Assembly: GCA_009599575.1 (NCBI GenBank)
Contig: VWND01000039.1
Coordinates: forward strand, 114,309-178,308
From: Blumeriella jaapii
Taxonomy: Eukaryota > Ascomycota > Leotiomycetes > Helotiales > Drepanopezizaceae
Length of the DNA: 64,000 nucleotides
Direction of reading: 5' to 3'
Under the pieces are notes generated by a model that saw only the letters and a program-made list of their open reading frames with translations, was not told where the DNA came from and did not search any database. The position numbers and the translations under genes were made by a program. This document shows positions 47,000-55,135 of the stretch, piece after piece (position 1 is the first letter of the stretch; each line of letters begins with the position of its first letter).

Positions 47000-47171
47000 T
47001 GTAAGGGGGCGAACGAGCAGAAGGTTCGTAGATGATTTGCATTGACTACGAGGTTCTAAGTTAGAGGTGTCGCGAAGTCTAAGATACAGTGTGTGCGGGC
47101 TCCGATGTCACGTGACAACAACGTGACCTTCGGACCACGTGACCAACGAACTGACGTCTCATCCTCTTACA
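47000..47171 (-). repeat. A1 3' LTR
   Basis: 172 bp. It differs from the 5' LTR only within the first eight bases on its own strand (TGTAAGAG versus TGTGAAGG). It carries CACGTG at 47109-47114 and 47136-47141 and a third half-site between them. Confidence 0.95.
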
Positions 47172-47176
47172 TATGG

Positions 47177-47187
47177 TCTTCCTTCCC
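47177..47187 (-). other. GypA polypurine tract
   Basis: On the minus strand GGGAAGGAAGA lies just upstream of the 3' LTR, the expected primer for plus-strand DNA synthesis. Confidence 0.7.
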
Positions 47188-47192
47188 ATTTT

Positions 47193-47719
47193 TTATTTAA
47201 TTTCTTCGTCGTCGGAATCTACTTTTATGAATCGAGCTTCGTTCGCGAGGCGTTTTTGTAAACGAGTGCGGGGTTCAGCTGGAATAGTAGAAGAAGTGGT
47301 AGTAGAGGCAGGCTTTCCTAGTTTCGGAAGCAGAACAACTGATTCTTTTGTAATAGGGGAGGAATTGGTAGCAGTTTTCTTGTGTTTGGTGACGGTTGTA
47401 AAGGTTTTTTTTGGTGGTAAAGGCTCGTTTTCGTTATTTATCGATTTGGCACGTTTCCTGTTGGCAATTCTGGCTTTAGCCAGTTCTGCCTTGGTCGGGT
47501 GAGGTTTCTGAGGGAAACGTGTAACGAATTCAGCTATAGAATTGTGTGCGTTGACAACGTTTTTTAGTGGTTCCTAAGACTGGTTTTCGGCGTTGTAGCC
47601 ACGCTATTGTATTAGATAGAAGAAGTTGGGGTCTCGTTTAGAGTCGAGAATGGCGTTTATAGCCTATAGCAAGCTTCCGTTTGCGTCGATAGAAACAGGT
47701 GGGGGGGGGGGGGTTTTTT
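47193..47719 (-). pseudogene. GypA chromodomain and C-terminal tail (A1)
   Basis: Read on the minus strand after a 13-G/10-T homopolymer (47701-47723) that has shifted the frame. The chromodomain spans about 47525-47680: AINAILDSKRDPNFFYLIQ, stop, RGYNAENQS, stop, EPLKN. Both stops are TAG where Trp is standard, i.e. TGG-to-TAG. Chromodomains bind methylated histone H3 and steer integration to heterochromatin. A basic, Pro/Lys-rich tail (AKARIANRKRAKS) runs to a DSDDEEIK end and TAA at 47193-47195. The plus-strand 109-residue frame here is antisense. Confidence 0.85.
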
Positions 47720-48950
47720 TTTTGCTCTGGGAGGGGGTCGTTTGTAGGCAGGTTTGAGCAGATTGGTGTGGAAAACAGGGTGTAATAGTTTTTGTTCGAA
47801 AGGTAATTTCAGCCTGTAACTGTGAGAGCTTAGAACTTCGGCGATTTTGTAAGGACCGTAGAATTTGTTGTTTAGTTTCTTGATTGGTCTGGTGGAGGTT
47901 ATATTGCGTCTGTTAAGAAATACGTTATCTTTTATTTTGTAAGCAGGAGCTGGTTGGCGTTGTTGATTAGAGTGGTGTTTCTGGTCGGCTAACGCTGAAG
48001 TCAGATTTGTACGTAAGAGTAGTTCTAACTTTTTTATTTTGTCGGCGAAGTCGTTTCCTTCCGTATTTGCTATTCGCAAGGTGCGTGAAGTGGAACCTAG
48101 AATAGGCTTAGGTGGAGAAAAGCTTATTCGGGGGTGGAAGCTTTTGTTGGCGTAGAAGGGGGAAACTCCGGTGGAAGCGTTTACAGCGTTATTCGCTGCG
48201 AATTCAGCTAGAGGGAGCCAGTTTTCCCAATCTTCTTGAGCGTATTCGACGAATTGTCTCAAGTAGGAGAGTAGGTAGGCGTTCGCGTTTTCGGTTTGGC
48301 CGTCTGTCGGGGTGAAAGCTGGTGGATAGCGTAATATTGGTTCCGAGACGGTGATTAATAGCTTTCCAGAACTGTGAAACAAACAGGGAACCTCGGTCTG
48401 AAATTATAGAGTCGGGGAGACTATGTAAACGCCAGATATTTCTGCAAAACAACTTGGCTAAGTTTGTCGCTTTTATAGCTGTATGGCAGGCTGTGTAGTG
48501 TCGTTTTTTGGTAAGGCGACAAACTACTACTATGATCAGGTTGTTTCGACTCTTATGCTTTTTTACTGGAAAGGGGCCTATAAAGTCGACCGATATATGG
48601 CTCCAACGGCGTAAAGGGATAGGTAGGGGTTTGAGGAGTCCTTGATAGCGTTGATTGGTGCTTGTATTGCGGGAGCAGCCGTTGCAATTGCGAACAAATC
48701 TTTTGCAATCTTCGGAAACTAATGGCCAATAGTAATCTCTACTGATGATTTCGTAAAGCTTGTTTTTGCCAGGATGGCCTGTTTTTACTGAATCATGGGC
48801 CATTTGTAAAAGCCAGGTACGGATAGGAACGTTTAAATTCGGTGTATCGGGGACGTAAAGTCGGTTTCGGAAGTACAACTTGTTATTGCGTATAGCGCAT
48901 TCAGAGAGTTGTAACGTTTTAGATTTCGGAATACCCTTTGGTTTGAGCAT
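47657..48950 (-). pseudogene. GypA integrase (A1)
   Basis: Inserts the cDNA into the host genome. A zinc-binding HHCC region lies near 48660-48800 (MAHDSVKTGHPGKNKLYEI, then NCNGC). Core: SVDFIGPFP (first Asp, about 48575), SIISDRGSLFVSQF (second Asp, about 48400), then a one-base deletion near 48308 shifts the frame and the DGQTENANAYLL block with the catalytic Glu continues in the frame 48382-47657. The GPY module (FYGPYKIAEVL) and LLHPVFHTNLLKPA follow near 47760-47860. All D-D-E residues are present across the two frames, so the loss is recent. Confidence 0.88.
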
Positions 48951-49179
48951 TTTTTTTTTGGTAGCGATTTACAGTTTGTTAATGGGGTAGTATTTATTCA
49001 GAAGTCGTGAAAGCTTTTCGTCGTCTGCTTCGGGTTGTTTTAGCGAAGCCGGAGAAGCGATCAAAACTTCGGTCAGGTGGTGTTCTTTGAGAAGGGCTTG
49101 GTTTTGGAACTGAATTCTTTCGTCTGAAGAGTCTTGAGGGAGGTTTTGAGAGCGTCGGGTTAAAGAGTCAGGTTTGCCA

Positions 49180-50324
49180 TTTTGTTTTTCAGGTCTGAAT
49201 GTGATTACAAAGTCAAAATCAGCTAAAAACTCGCTTCAGCGTACTTGACGCCTGTTGAGTTGCTTAGTCGTTATGAAATATTCTAAGTTTCGGTGGTTTG
49301 TGAGTATTCGAATTGGGTAGGCAGCTTTTTGTAATTCGGCTCGCCAACTTTCGAAGCAACGTATAATAGCGAGGAGTTTTTTGTTATAGATCTCGTAGTT
49401 GCATTCGGCAGAATCGAACTTCTTCGATATGAAAGCGATTGGATGGAGTACTTCTGCATCGTCCTTTTGGGAGAGAATCCCCGAAGAAACGTAGTTAGAA
49501 GCGTTAGTTTCAACGAATATCTTTTTGTCAGAGTTGAAATGGGACAACGTAGGTGCAGTCGTAAAGGCCGATTTGAGGAACTCGAAGGCTTTTATACAGT
49601 CGTCGTCAAAGTTCCATTTAGTATTTTTTTTCGTTAAATTTATCAAAGGTGTAACGATTCTAGAGAAACTTTTGATAAATCGTCGATAAAAATTCGCAAA
49701 ACCTAAAAACGCTTGTACGTTTTTCTGACGTTGGAAGGGAGATTCCAGCCCGTAATCGCTTCGAGCTTCTTAGGGTCCATTTTGATTCCAGTGGTAGAAA
49801 TAATTATCCTAAGGTAAACGACTTTTTGAACTTCGAATTCGCACTTTTTTATATTTAGTTGCAGGCCTGCGTCAGAGAGAGCTTGAAGAATAAGGTTGAC
49901 GTGTTTTCTGTGTTTTTGAAGGTCGTCTGAATAGACTAGAATATCGTTTATGTAAGCTGTGCAGAAGATATTTAGGTAGGGTCGTAGAATATCGTTTATG
50001 CGGGATTGAAACGTGGGCGGGGGCGTTGCATAGTCCGAAAGGCATAACCAAAGATTCGAACAGGCTATATCTCGTGTTGAATGCAGTAAGCTATTTATGG
50101 CTTTTTTTTATTCGAATCTTATTGAAAGCAGCGAAGACGTCGAGTTTAGTGTAATATTTGGCTTTGCTTAGTCGTGAGAGCGTTTCTTGAACCAATGGTA
50201 AGGGGTATCGGTTTTTGATTGTAATAGCGTTAAGAGCCTTGTAATCGACGCAAAATCGTAGTCCTCCTCCTGGTTTTTTCGCGAATAGGACTGGAGAGGC
50301 TGCGGGGGAGGAGCTCGCTCGGAT
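49180..50324 (-). pseudogene. GypA reverse transcriptase and RNase H (A1)
   Basis: Continues the protease frame after a TGA at 50325-50327 where Trp is expected. Reads [20 protein letters not shown] (50230-50290) and MPFGLCNAPA, then an extra base near 50020 shifts the frame. The catalytic block appears as YINDILVYSDD (about 49920-49960) where Y-[IVL]-D-D is usual, so one Asp is Asn. A second indel near 49725 restores the frame at [14 protein letters not shown]. RNase H (49236-49646) reads VETNASNYV: the catalytic Asp of ETDAS is Asn, again G-to-A; A2 still has Asp there. A TGA replaces Trp at 49236. The linker to integrase (49180-48951) holds one more stop. Confidence 0.88.
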
Positions 50325-51317
50325 TCAGCTTTTTTCGAGGTTTTCTTTGAGAAATTTGCGTAAGACTTGAAGTTCGTCGACTGATATGTTGTACAAAGGG
50401 CCGTGTGGAGGTACTGCTCCAGGTCGAAGTTCTATCGTATGATCAACGCTTTTTTTATGAAGTGCAAGTTTATCAGCTTCGATAGGGTCAAAAGCGGCTA
50501 GGTGGTGATGGTAGTGAAGAGGGAGTTTTATTCGAGGGTCGATTGGCGGTTTGGTTTGGAGGGCCAAACGGATATTTTCCAGTGAAGCTCCAGCGAGGTA
50601 GAGTTCGGCTGAAAGTTGTTGTCGTGCAGTCTGAGAAAGCTTATTCTTTTGCAATTGATCGATTTTAAATGATGTGGTGGGGGGAGATTCGTCGGTTGGG
50701 GCGTTTAGTTTGTGTAGTTGTTGATTGATTTCGTACAAAGAGGCAGAGAATACCTCGACTTTTGGTTGAGAGGCTAAGGTGGTAAACACAGCTGCTTTTG
50801 TACGACGAGGTGGAGCTGGTAGAACGACAGTTTTGTAAGAGTGGCGTTTCTGGACTAGGCCTGAAACGGCCAATTGATGAATGCGTTGAGGTAAGCAATT
50901 CGTACGGCAGAAGTCTGAATTGAAACAAAGGGTGTTCGTGGTCCAGTCAATATGAGGGTTGTGTGTCCGAAGCCAGGGCTTTCCTAGAATAAGGTCGTAT
51001 TTTCCTAGTGTTGTAATGAAAGCTGTAATTAGTTCGGTGTGGCCGGCGGTATTAACTTGAAAGGAGATTTGGTGAGTAACATCGCCGTGGGTGGAGGAGC
51101 GTCCGTCAACCACGGTAAGTTTACGTGGGTTGGTAAGTAAAACAGGGGTCAATTCGTAGTGTTGCACGAAAGAATGGTTAATGAAATTATCGGTAGCTCC
51201 GGAGTCGTTTAAGAAGTAGGTTTTGATGTGTGTACCATTAGTAGTTATAGTATAAGGCAATACCAAATGTGGTTCCGGAACGCCGTTCAAAGCAGATAAC
51301 TTTAATTTATTTTTCAA
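50325..51317 (-). pseudogene. GypA aspartic protease and N-terminal RT linker (A1)
   Basis: An uninterrupted 330-residue frame. The retropepsin active site NDSGATDNF lies at residues about 36-44 (51184-51210), and the second hallmark YDLILGKPWL follows about 80 residues later, as in Ty3/Gypsy proteases. The second half is the linker leading into RT (LYNISVDELQVLRKFL). In the intact element this is part of a Gag-Pol or Pol polyprotein; the isolated start at 51317 is not a true initiation site. It ends at a TGA that replaces Trp. Confidence 0.88.
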
Positions 51318-51359
51318 AGGTTTCTGATAGTGACAATTATTAGAGACAGTTAGTTTCCC

Positions 51360-52525
51360 GACTTTTTTGCTTCGGTTTTAGCCTTTTTGACTTAAGGGGA
51401 GTCGGGGCAATTAGCAGCGCGGTGTTTATCGCTGGCACATTATAAGCAAAGGTTATTAGCAAAGAGGTAGGTTCGGCGCGCTAACTTTTCGGCATTACCT
51501 ACTGGGCGTTTGTTTTTGGCTATATCGGCTGCGGTTTATGTAATTGCTTTGGTTTGAGTGGCGCTGAGGTTCATAGGGTCGCTCTGAATGGTAGTCGTAG
51601 TAGCAGTTTTGAATGTGGGAGCAGAAGAAGTGATTTCCGTATTGCGGCCTTCGGTTTTGTAGTAGTTGGGATTTAGTTGTCGAAGGACGGTATCGGTTTC
51701 GCGTATTTGGGCGCAAAAACCAATAAGGTCGGTTTTTAGATCGGAAGGGTTGGTGTAAGACAGGCGGGTGATTATATCAGAATGAAGAGCTTCGCGCAGA
51801 ATAGCGATAGCGGCTTCGTTATTAAACTTAGTGTGACTTTTAATTTCCAGCCAGGTGGGGAGAAAGGTGGACAGGAGTTGATTGCTTTGCTTGAAGGATA
51901 GAATTCTTTTAGATGCATCTGCTTGTTGGTTAAGGACACCGAACGATTGTTGAAGGACTTGAATCATTTCTGCAACAGTCAGGTAGGAGAAGGTGCCGTC
52001 CGTACGTAAACCTTTTTGTAAAGCGCTTCTGGCTGTATCGGAGAGGCGGGAGAAGAAGTAACTTATGCGATCCTGTTCGGTCGCATATCAGTCCTGATTG
52101 AAACGGAGCTTTAGGATTATATTTTGAAGGAAGGTGGTAAGGTGCTTCGTAACGTTGCCGGTGCCACCCGAACTTGTGAACTTATCGGGGTCGGGGAAGG
52201 CAGGTGTTCTTTTTTCTGCGTTTGAGGTGTTCGGTGTATTTTGACTGGTAGGAGCTTGTCTTCGGAGGTTGGCAAGATCGGCTTCGCGGTCTTGAATCAC
52301 TTTCTTTTGAGAGGCCTTTTCTTCCCAGTATTGTACCGTCTGAACATCCAGCTTCTGAGCGAGATTATTCAGTTTGGCTTTGAGTGATACTACTACATCG
52401 TTCTGCTTTACCGCGTAGGCGAAGATATCGAGGATTTCTTGAGAGCAAGCTTCCGTATTGGCGATCAGGGCGGCGACGACTTGGTCGGGGTATTCAAGGT
52501 GCTCTAAAATAGGGCAATTGGGGGT
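51360..52525 (-). pseudogene. GypA gag (A1)
   Basis: Capsid protein. The frame is open from about 52525 (VVETPNCPILEHLEYPDQVV) with a likely coiled-coil stretch (SLKAKLNNLAQKLDVQTVQY), then QDREADLANLRRQ. TGA at 52088 replaces Trp in NQD-YATEQ; the frame continues with FFSRLSDTARSAL and MIQVLQQSFGVLNQQ. TAA at 51536 replaces Gln. A CCHC zinc knuckle C-L-stop-CASDKHRAANC sits near 51405-51450 with one more CAA-to-TAA. The true start is unclear: an ATG near 52550 (MSELPKL) is one frame off. Stops are of RIP type. Confidence 0.85.
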
Positions 52526-52814
52526 TTCGACAACTTGGGAAGTTCCGACATTTCGGTATTGGTGTCCGTTAAGGAAGGAGCGTGAAATGTGTTTTGTTCC
52601 GGGATGTAGGCAGAAGCAGAACAGGGTTTTTTGAATGTAAGTCTTGTGTCAGAGGGGGTTGTCGTTTCGTAGTTTCGTGTGAGGGGTCGTAGGGGTCGTA
52701 AGGTTGTGTCGCGATGAGGTTGATTTTCTGTATGCGCAAAGGCAGAACAGAGTTGGCAGGCCTTTTCAGCTCGAGGGCTGAAATAGGGGTGTCAGGGGTG
52801 TTTGGTAGTTAATA

Positions 52815-52986
52815 TGTAAGGGGGCGAACGAGCAGAAGGTTCGTAGATGATTTGCATTGACTACGAGGTTCTAAGTTAGAGGTGTCGCGAAGTCTAAGAT
52901 ACAGTGTGTGCGGGCTCCGATGTCACGTGACAACAACGTGACCTTCGGACCACGTGACCAACGAACTGACGTCTCATCCCTTCACA
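52815..52986 (-). repeat. A1 5' LTR
   Basis: 172 bp, on its own strand TGTGAAGGGATG to CCCTTACA. Identical to the 3' LTR apart from the first few bases, giving a recent insertion. Confidence 0.95.
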
Positions 52987-52991
52987 ATAAT

Positions 52992-53385
52992 TAAATAACT
53001 AGCGTTGTTAGTATTTTAATTTAAACTGCGAAAATAAAAAATAACAAATTAAAACAAAACATTTTATTCAATAACTTTTAGTTAATAAAAATAATTTTTT
53101 TTTTTATAATCTAATAGTAGCTTTCTGTTTTTATTACTTTTCAATTTAGCATAATTAAATATCTGACGTTGGTAGTGTTTTAGTACAAAATGCGATAATA
53201 AAAAATAAAAAATAAAAAAATAAACTTTTAATTTAATAACTTTTAATTAAGAAAAATGAAAATTTTAGTTTAATATCTAAAAAATAGCTTTCTGTTTTAT
53301 TACCTTTCAATTTGATGTAATTACATATCTGGCGTTGATGGTGATTTAATATAAAATGCGATCGTAAAAAATAATAATCTGAAAT
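52992..53385 (+). repeat. TirM subterminal repeat array (M1)
   Basis: Three units of about 165 bp, each with TAATTAAATATCTGGCG-type sequence followed by AAAATGCGATCGTAAAAAAT (units at about 52990, 53154 and 53322). The same array occurs in mirror orientation at 55040-55430 in M2. Subterminal repeats of this kind are typical transposase-binding regions. Confidence 0.65.
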
Positions 53386-53396
53386 GGGACACTTGG

Positions 53397-53658
53397 TGTT
53401 ACGATCCTGGCCTGGCTAGTGGTAGTTGCCAGTGGTATGGTTGCCAGTGGTATGATTGCTGGTGGTGTTGGATTAAGGTTTGGGCACGGACCACCTCGGC
53501 CACTAGGCCTTGCCCTAAGTCACGTGACCCACAAGCGCAACCCACTGTACATAAAGTTCGCGACCCCGAGCATTCCAGCTCGGTGTTTTTCTTTTAATTT
53601 ACATGCGTACCTTTTGGTCCACATCACCCTTCTGATCACCCTCAAGCTAGCTGTGACA
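53397..53658 (+). repeat. Solo LTR of GypC (C2)
   Basis: 262 bp, TGTTACGATCC to GCTGTGACA, flanked by CTTGG on both sides (53392-53396, 53659-53663), so it arose by insertion and later LTR-LTR recombination. It carries CACGTG at 53521-53526 and only modest RIP compared with C1. It splits one of the TGGGACACTTGGATGCA motifs of TirM. The 98-residue frame across it is not a gene. Confidence 0.92.
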
Positions 53659-54535
53659 CTTGGATGCAATGGAACACTTGCTTTCCCCTATATTATCCGA
53701 GTGCCCGCAGGATAAATGTGGGAAGGCAGCCCACTATTTTTCTGCTTCGAAAAAATAAAACAAAATCATTGCAATCGAAAAAGTTTAAAGTTCGTACCAA
53801 GCACCGCGCACAAATATTGAATTTAGCCCGCGAGATCGACGTCGTCGACGGCCTCGTATTCCGAAGGACGGCTTCTTCCGCTTATAAAACTTAAAGTAAA
53901 GTTAAATTAATATAATAAAGTTTATTCCGAATCAAGCCGTGAAATAATTAAAAAATTCTTTTATTGCATTTTGAATTTCAATAATTAAACGAAATTATAT
54001 TAGATTTAAATTCGTATAAGATTCTAATGGTTTGTATTGCAAAGAAGTATTTTCAAAATGATTTATTATTTAATACTTTAATTATTAAGGATTTGTCGGC
54101 ATCGGAAAAAAAAGTACTCGTTTTTAAAAGATTCCACGCTATTTTATTGGCCGGAAACGCTTTATTATTCCTTTTGTCGCGGCATAAATTTGACTTTTAT
54201 TCAAGGGATAGGATACTATAAAATAAGATTTTCAAGTAGTCTTGGAAGGTTTAAGTTTTTCAAATCCCTGATCTTTCATTTCAGAATGTATTTTGAACAT
54301 ACTAAGTAGACTTACAGAGTTATGACTAGCAACCACTACAAAACGTACTCGTATTTACTAGGGATAAAAGTAACATGCTCAAAAAAGATAAAAAAGGTCG
54401 CCCGCCCTCCATTTCGTTATTTCCAATCCCAAGTACTGATTACATTCCATTTATACTTGCATACCTCGCTTTATTTAATATTCTATTATATTATCAGACC
54501 TTTCGCTTATCGATTTGTTCAAAATACTATTCAAG

Positions 54536-54740
54536 ATGAAATTCTTCAACCTTTTTATTTTTGCTGCAATCAGCTCTGTCGTAATTGCTACATGCAAATC
54601 TGACAAGGATTGTATCTATCCGGTAAGTGACTTTTATTAATAAAAACAAACCAATAATATTAATAAATATTTGAAAATAGACCTCCTGTCTCCCACGCTC
54701 TACACTCCGTTGTGTAAATGGGAACTGCGTATGCATATAA
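54536..54740 (+). CDS. Candidate small secreted cysteine-rich protein (effector/defensin-like), two exons
   Basis: Exon 1 is 54536-54622, the intron 54623-54680 (58 nt, GTAAGT...AATAG), and exon 2 54681-54740 with TAA. The product is 48 residues. Residues 1-18 form a signal peptide (Lys at 2, hydrophobic core FFNLFIFAAISSVV, V-I-A before the predicted cut after Ala18). The mature ~30 residues hold six cysteines at 20, 26, 32, 40, 45 and 47: C-X5-C-X5-C-X7-C-X4-C-X-C. This spacing and the C-x4-C-x-C end resemble knottin/defensin-like and nodule-type cysteine-rich peptides, but I cannot assign a family. Fungal proteins of this type often act outside the cell on hosts or competitors; that role is inferred. 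A TATA-like TATTATATTATC lies about 45 bp upstream. No RIP damage is seen, although the gene is walled in by repeats. The start is the only ATG giving a signal peptide. Without the intron the frame ends soon after exon 1. Confidence 0.72.
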
Positions 54741-54765
54741 AAAGTGGACGAATAGCCCGTTGCAT

Positions 54766-54821
54766 TGTAACGGCCCGGCCATTCGGCTGTTCGGCTTTCG
54801 GCTATTCAGCCTTCCGTTACA
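54766..54821. repeat. Small inverted repeat downstream of the peptide gene
   Basis: TGTAACGG at 54766-54773 pairs with CCGTTACA at 54814-54821, enclosing three tandem TTCGGCT-like units. It starts 26 bp after the stop codon and could fold as a hairpin in the 3' UTR, or be the scar of a mobile element. Confidence 0.4.
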
Positions 54822-54943
54822 TTTCTAGCTTAGCGCCAGGGCCAGGGGGTTCTACAGTGTGTATAGTTCGCTCTGAGAGCTTCCTTCCTTTCAGCTCTCT
54901 GTTTGTATCTTAAGGGAAATATATGAGGTTCGTTATATGCATA

Positions 54944-55135
54944 ATAATGGGCTGCCTTCCCACATTTATCCTGCGGGCATTCGGATAATGTGGGGGAAAG
55001 CAAGTGTCCCACTGCATCCAAGTGTCCCATCTCAATTTATGATTTTTTACGATCGCATTTTATATTAAAACATTATTATTTAATTACACCAAATTGAAAG
55101 GTAATAAAAGCAAAAAGCAATTTTTAAATTTTAAA
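54944..55135 (+). repeat. M2 left terminal inverted repeat
   Basis: Aligns to the reverse complement of 62540-62717 from the TA-adjacent end through ACGATCGCATTTTATATTAAAAC and beyond. It carries the hairpin and the two CAAGTGTCCCA repeats, unmutated. Confidence 0.75.

Follow-up and report, generated by a model that had tools for sequence, protein, structure and literature searches.

Can a 48-residue, cysteine-rich peptide be the product of a real gene when the gene is split by an intron and lies in an AT-rich block of repeats, and, if so, what would the peptide do? The question is raised by a locus in a window of 64,000 nucleotides of the Blumeriella jaapii genome (C39:114309-178308, reaching the contig end). 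Judged from the sequence, the gene is very probably real, and its product is probably a small secreted three-disulfide peptide, a derived and diversifying branch of the fungal defensin-like peptides that acts against other organisms. On reading the sequence we recovered, to the base, the gene model of the preliminary description: 48 residues with cysteines at positions 20, 26, 32, 40, 45, and 47 and a 58-nt intron (Table 1). Two of the cysteines come from exon 1 and four from exon 2, at a spacing of 5-5-7-4-1, and without splicing the frame runs into stops within the intron. Both strands of the window were scanned for a hydrophobic leader, a GTANG donor, a YAG acceptor, exactly six cysteines past residue 18, a CxC, and a length of at most 70 amino acids; this gene was the sole match, and 60 order-1 Markov replicas of the window gave none, a null that serves as a sanity check only, since the criteria were set once the gene had been seen.

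Stronger proof comes from relatives in the same genome, which comprises 47.4 Mb in 91 contigs and was searched at the DNA level, at the protein level, and with a leader-codon pattern. We count no fewer than 14 predicted intact genes, among them the one in the window, with a total of 15 six-cysteine modules (a single gene contributes two), and broken copies besides; the figure of 14 is a lower bound, the protein searches having scored the best candidates only. The leader-codon pattern had 15 matches in the genome and 0 in a reversed control: nine intact members, three broken or unclear ones, two leader-like starts without a recognizable module, and one, C1:2108852, that was neither. The remaining five intact genes were recovered through the protein searches. 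Two weak matches, C1:2108852 (without a leader) and C2:845291, were excluded from the count, and the C67 copy is broken, its exon 2 differing in length by one base. That the reading frame and splice sites of the window gene arose by chance is practically out of the question: its product is short and its model predicted from sequence, but 13 further predicted intact genes share one architecture, the leader-codon control was empty, and so were all 60 replicas.

Table 1. Features of the gene block and its surroundings (window coordinates) and family members in the genome (contig:position)
Feature	Location	Strand	Remarks
Exon 1	54536-54622	+	87 nt, ATG at 54536, phase 0; Cys1 and Cys2
Hydrophobic leader	54536-54589	+	18 residues, within exon 1; judged by eye and conservation only
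Intron	54623-54680	+	58 nt, phase 0, GTAAGT...AAAATAG
Exon 2	54681-54740	+	Cys3 to Cys6, TAA stop
5' flank common to C15:847252 copy	53901-54535	+	blastn; presumed promoter and leader sequence
5' flank common also to C67 copy	from 54241	+	blastn
3' flank remnant common to C67 copy	54741-54765	+	about 25 nt, then repeat
Repeat adjoining 3' end of gene	54766-54931	.	54764-54931 recurs in reverse orientation upstream of the C15 copy
Possible small element or LTR end (by eye)	54766-54821		starts TGTAACGG, ends CCGTTACA
Inverted repeat copies flanking gene block	53649-53738 / 54943-55032		90 nt, 91% complementary
Gypsy-type LTR element	47000-52986	-	protease, integrase, Tf2-like domains; 172-nt direct repeats, 98% identical
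Intact genes	window, C15:844001, C15:847252, C15:853180		three on one C15 stretch
Intact genes, single module	C10 (L041), C16 (L024), C71, C74, C25, C26, C29, C64, C5
Position of the C71 gene listed above (L023)	C71:883914	-	GC-AG intron model
Intact two-module gene (L042)	C17:193300-194500	-	12 Cys
Broken or unclear members	C14 (L021), C67, C15:813662
Leader-like start, module not recognizable	C1:133285, C71:1195445
Relic	C15:839767
Cys2-Cys3 spacing 3	C25, C26, C29, C64, C5, C17 (twice)		7 modules
Cys2-Cys3 spacing 4	C15:844001, C74, C10		3 modules
Cys2-Cys3 spacing 5	window, C15:847252, C16, C71		4 modules
Cys2-Cys3 spacing 1	C15:853180		1 module

The predicted members are built on one plan. 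All 14 intact genes have a leader and carry a phase-0 intron in the Cys2-Cys3 interval, each module of the two-module gene having its own intron. The introns measure 50 to 76 nt; 14 of the 15 are GT-AG, and the other, on C71, is GC-AG with a GCAAGT donor. The members' splice sites are predictions picked to yield a six-cysteine frame, which favors the pattern; they are supported because phase and position are shared across members and the introns are conserved. All six cysteines are invariant across the 15 modules, and Cys5 and Cys6 form a CxC in 12 of them (CVC in the window peptide). A GxC, as in the gamma-core, reads GNC in the window peptide and occurs somewhere in 7 of the 12 mature peptides tested. 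We read the family as lineage specific, dispersed, and partly tandem. Searches of a set of 5.8 billion proteins returned 0, 1, and 71 candidates, none of which scored, so that no homologue outside this genome was found there; this carries little weight, since the set probably contains few short spliced genes. A literature search, which covered few subscription papers, found no such fungal family described.

The surroundings of the window gene agree in part with what had been described. GC content is 21 to 36% per kb throughout the window save for 40 to 48% at 47 to 53 kb, where the Gypsy-type element lies; with an RIP index of 0.86, weaker than that of the surrounding repeats, this element is a younger insertion into an old desert. 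The claim of an intron-containing, leader-bearing six-cysteine gene of defensin- or knottin-like kind in an AT-rich repeat block finds support. The description also spoke of RIP-affected blocks, and this label holds for the surrounding repeats, where four desert stretches show RIP-like depletion [(CA+TG)/(AC+GT) of 0.63 to 0.76], but not for the gene block itself, where the same index is 1.04 (53001-54240) and 1.07 (54241-54765), without an RIP signature; the corresponding C15 and C67 stretches give 1.16 and 1.18. Transitions on the window branch lean toward A/T, at 25:7 versus 9:10 on the C15 branch (P = 0.034). RIP within the window gene itself is not supported, only 8 of these 25 A/T-ward transitions being in a CpA/TpG context. 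Most other family members lie outside AT-rich sequence; the C67 copy is in a GC-rich setting near a dihydroxy-acid dehydratase gene, and the C15 cluster is in sequence of 38 to 47% GC. Membership of the family therefore does not depend on an AT-rich desert setting. Further AT-rich inverted repeats lie outside the 90-nt inverted pair.

The rate of change is uneven along the gene. The window copy is 91% and 87% identical to the C15:847252 and C67 copies, respectively, in the leader DNA, 79% and 84% in the intron, 84% and 72% over the 250 bp upstream of the ATG, and 57% and 56% in exon 2, with the mature exon parts at 45 to 61%. Among eight genes compared pairwise (the window gene, the three on C15, and those on C10, C16, C71, and C74; the other six intact genes are outside this set), mature identity was lower than intron identity in 28 of 28 pairs, and mean identities were 0.74 for the leader, 0.67 for the intron, 0.60 for the 100 bp upstream, and 0.48 for the mature part. 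When changes on the window branch were polarized with the C15:847252 and C67 copies as references, they fell at 26 of 292 upstream sites, 5 of 58 in the intron, 1 of 54 in the leader, 20 of 92 in the mature part, and 3 of 25 on the 3' side. The mature part thus exceeded upstream plus intron (31/350; P = 0.0015); the leader differed strongly from the mature part (P = 0.0005) and less clearly from upstream plus intron (P = 0.10). On the C15 branch, an excess in the mature part (9/92 versus 20/350) was not significant (P = 0.16). The picture is of a leader, recognized by eye and by conservation, joined to a mature part that differs more than the intron does, with dS raised too: Nei-Gojobori estimates for the mature non-cysteine codons, window versus C15, were 0.89 for dN and 0.79 for dS on shaky alignments, and the ratio is close to 1 because both are high. 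Positive selection on the mature part is suggested by these values rather than proven, and gene conversion of leader and intron offers an alternative cause of the contrast between mature part and intron.

These rates also bear on the rival that survives best, namely, that within a genuine family the window copy has lately become a relic and is intact only through the short time elapsed. The copy is indeed stranded among repeats, one of which takes the place of its 3' flank from about 25 nt past the stop; other copies (C67, C14, and C15:839767) are broken; and its branch has the A/T-ward lean given above. Neutral survival of 19 key positions (cysteines, ATG, and splice sites) at the window-branch rate of 0.089 changes per site would have a probability of 0.17, so intactness alone proves little. 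A relic would nonetheless have to keep its frame, its splice sites, and all six cysteines and, on the same branch, a leader almost free of change beside a heavily changed mature part, and we consider this history unlikely, though with an appreciable residual chance.

The preferred reading remains a functional, secreted, defensin-derived peptide. Removal of the leader and secretion would leave a mature peptide of about 30 residues, which would fold oxidatively to a helix and a hairpin, probably with the Cys1-4, 2-5, and 3-6 pairing used for variant 1 of NCR13. The peptides may then serve as diversifying weapons or ligands aimed at competitors or at a host, perhaps with a separate target for each paralogue. 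Mature net charge ranges from -4 to +3 across 12 mature peptides, a range that does not indicate a uniformly cationic antimicrobial role and that favors specific targets over one membrane-lytic function shared by all. The same range could also befit a secreted self-signaling or developmental peptide of the fungus, and the fungal defensin-like anisin1 is reported in PMC4165938 to be tied to stress signaling and development; conservation would be expected of such a signal, yet no segment is less conserved than the mature part, which makes this role quite unlikely.

Profile searches drew attention to peptides of another kingdom. The best Pfam match of the window peptide was Nodulin_late (PF07127; E = 5.4e-6, 27.1 bits, below the curated cutoff of 30.4), which was also best for the C15:847252 (2.5e-5) and C25 (9.4e-6) copies. 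At E values up to 10, Nodulin_late matched 9 of the 12 single-module peptides scanned (C5 was outside the scan), with no match for C74, C29, C64, or the two-module C17 product, and no scanned family member attained the curated cutoff. The model includes a leader and is known to produce false matches (PMC2912341). Stripped of its leader, the window peptide still matched at 0.0014; six of seven leaderless members matched at E values up to 10, the window peptide alone falling below 0.01. None of eight shuffled window controls (six in which the mature part was shuffled around unmoved cysteines, and two full shuffles) produced a Nodulin_late match. PF07127 gave no match over the whole genome or in control genomes, in a search that is blind to spliced genes, and NCBIfam yielded nothing useful for the family. 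The E values for a profile of the 15 modules were 6.1e-5 with NCR13, 0.0042 with xanthusin-1, 0.041 with a scorpion K+ toxin-like peptide, and 0.042 with a defensin. With one shuffled profile that kept the cysteines only, NCR13 fell to 0.57 while xanthusin-1 stayed at 0.027; the NCR13 match thus rests partly on noncysteine residues and the xanthusin-1 match mostly on spacing.

Since Nodulin_late and NCR13 are the top matches for the window peptide and the family profile, one might suppose that a legume-type NCR gene reached the fungus by horizontal transfer from a plant. The match scores are weak, however; the same genome has members with the defensin CxxxC and the same intron, whose position between Cys2 and Cys3 is that of fungal defensin-like genes (PMC4165938); and the 5.8-billion-protein set, whose plant content is unspecified, contained no plant match. 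We regard such a transfer as very improbable.

The gene structure has parallels among fungal defensin-like peptides. According to PMC4165938, these peptides belong to multigene families; in some of them a phase-0 intron interrupts the helix region, and in some the precursor has two domains. The peptides of families fDEF1 to fDEF8 have in common with the present family the leader, the six cysteines, and the phase-0 intron between Cys2 and Cys3, and multigene organization and occasional two-domain precursors recur here as well. There are also differences: the fungal defensin-like CxxxC between Cys2 and Cys3 is found in 7 of the 15 modules and is absent from 8, the window copy (C-x5-C) included; dermatophyte-type genes have two introns, whereas the family has one per module; and the mature part is short, at about 30 residues. 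We found no sequence match to known fungal defensin-like peptides.

With legume NCR peptides the family has in common xD/E-C2 and xGxC-like residues and hypervariability behind a conserved leader. It differs from them in scoring below the Pfam cutoff, in belonging to a fungal genome, and in having some CxxxC members, and the likeness is partly one of spacing. NCR13 (PDB 7th8 and 8ulm) has a spacing of 5-4-7-4-1, which is that of the C74 and C10 members and differs in one position from that of the window peptide; it occurs in two disulfide variants, one of which was solved with a predicted Cys1-4, 2-5, and 3-6 pairing backed by NMR contacts (PMC11637438). The bacterial defensin xanthusin-1 (PDB 7unx; PMC11561630) has in common with the family the spacing of a three-disulfide CS-alpha-beta peptide, and the shuffled profile indicates that its match is mostly a matter of that spacing. 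Scorpion short toxins (PF00451 and alpha-KTx structures) have cysteine spacing like that of the CxxxC members. PF00451 (Toxin_2) was the sole Pfam match of the C29 peptide (E = 0.0064, 17.2 bits) and reached 9.3 bits with the window peptide, both below the cutoff of 25.1; a scorpion- or spider-toxin label was rejected, these matches being weak.

How NCR-like spacing might arise in a defensin-derived family is suggested by the variation in Cys2-Cys3 distance, the interval that holds the intron. Length change around the exon junction may have taken eight modules (the window copy and seven others) off CxxxC and given four of them the NCR-like five-residue spacing. CxxxC would then be ancestral and the NCR-like spacing a later product arising within the family, a direction drawn from the wide occurrence of CxxxC in defensins and not from a rooted tree. 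A bolder proposal, which we hold to be speculative and rather unlikely, is that the fungus has an independent NCR-like arsenal, built from defensin-type CxxxC genes, in which codon gain and loss at the splice junction between Cys2 and Cys3 eased the helix constraint, leaving the peptides NCR spaced and hypervariable at their surfaces, and which perhaps steers co-living organisms; a fungus checking its associates in this way would be likened to legumes with their rhizobia. The origin of NCR-type peptides becomes testable, because defensin and NCR-like spacings occur side by side in a single genome and the length change between them lies at the exon junction. If the genes are expressed, fungi gain a diversifying family of three-disulfide miniproteins in which a constant gene frame carries a free mature part. 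Conotoxins and NCRs combine a constant gene frame with a free mature part in the same way. Peptides as small as those of the family tend to be overlooked by ordinary gene calling.

Two further observations concern sequence next to family members. At C15:840651-840950, a weak match to the family model lies near a multicysteine frame, which may represent an exon of a different cysteine-rich gene. Just 3' of the stop in the C10, C14, and C16 copies there is a partly palindromic element of 25 to 26 nt, AATCTCCGGGG-CTT-AGGAGATTGG; similar post-stop sequence can be seen by eye in the C71 and C74 copies, and the element may be a shared 3' UTR signal.
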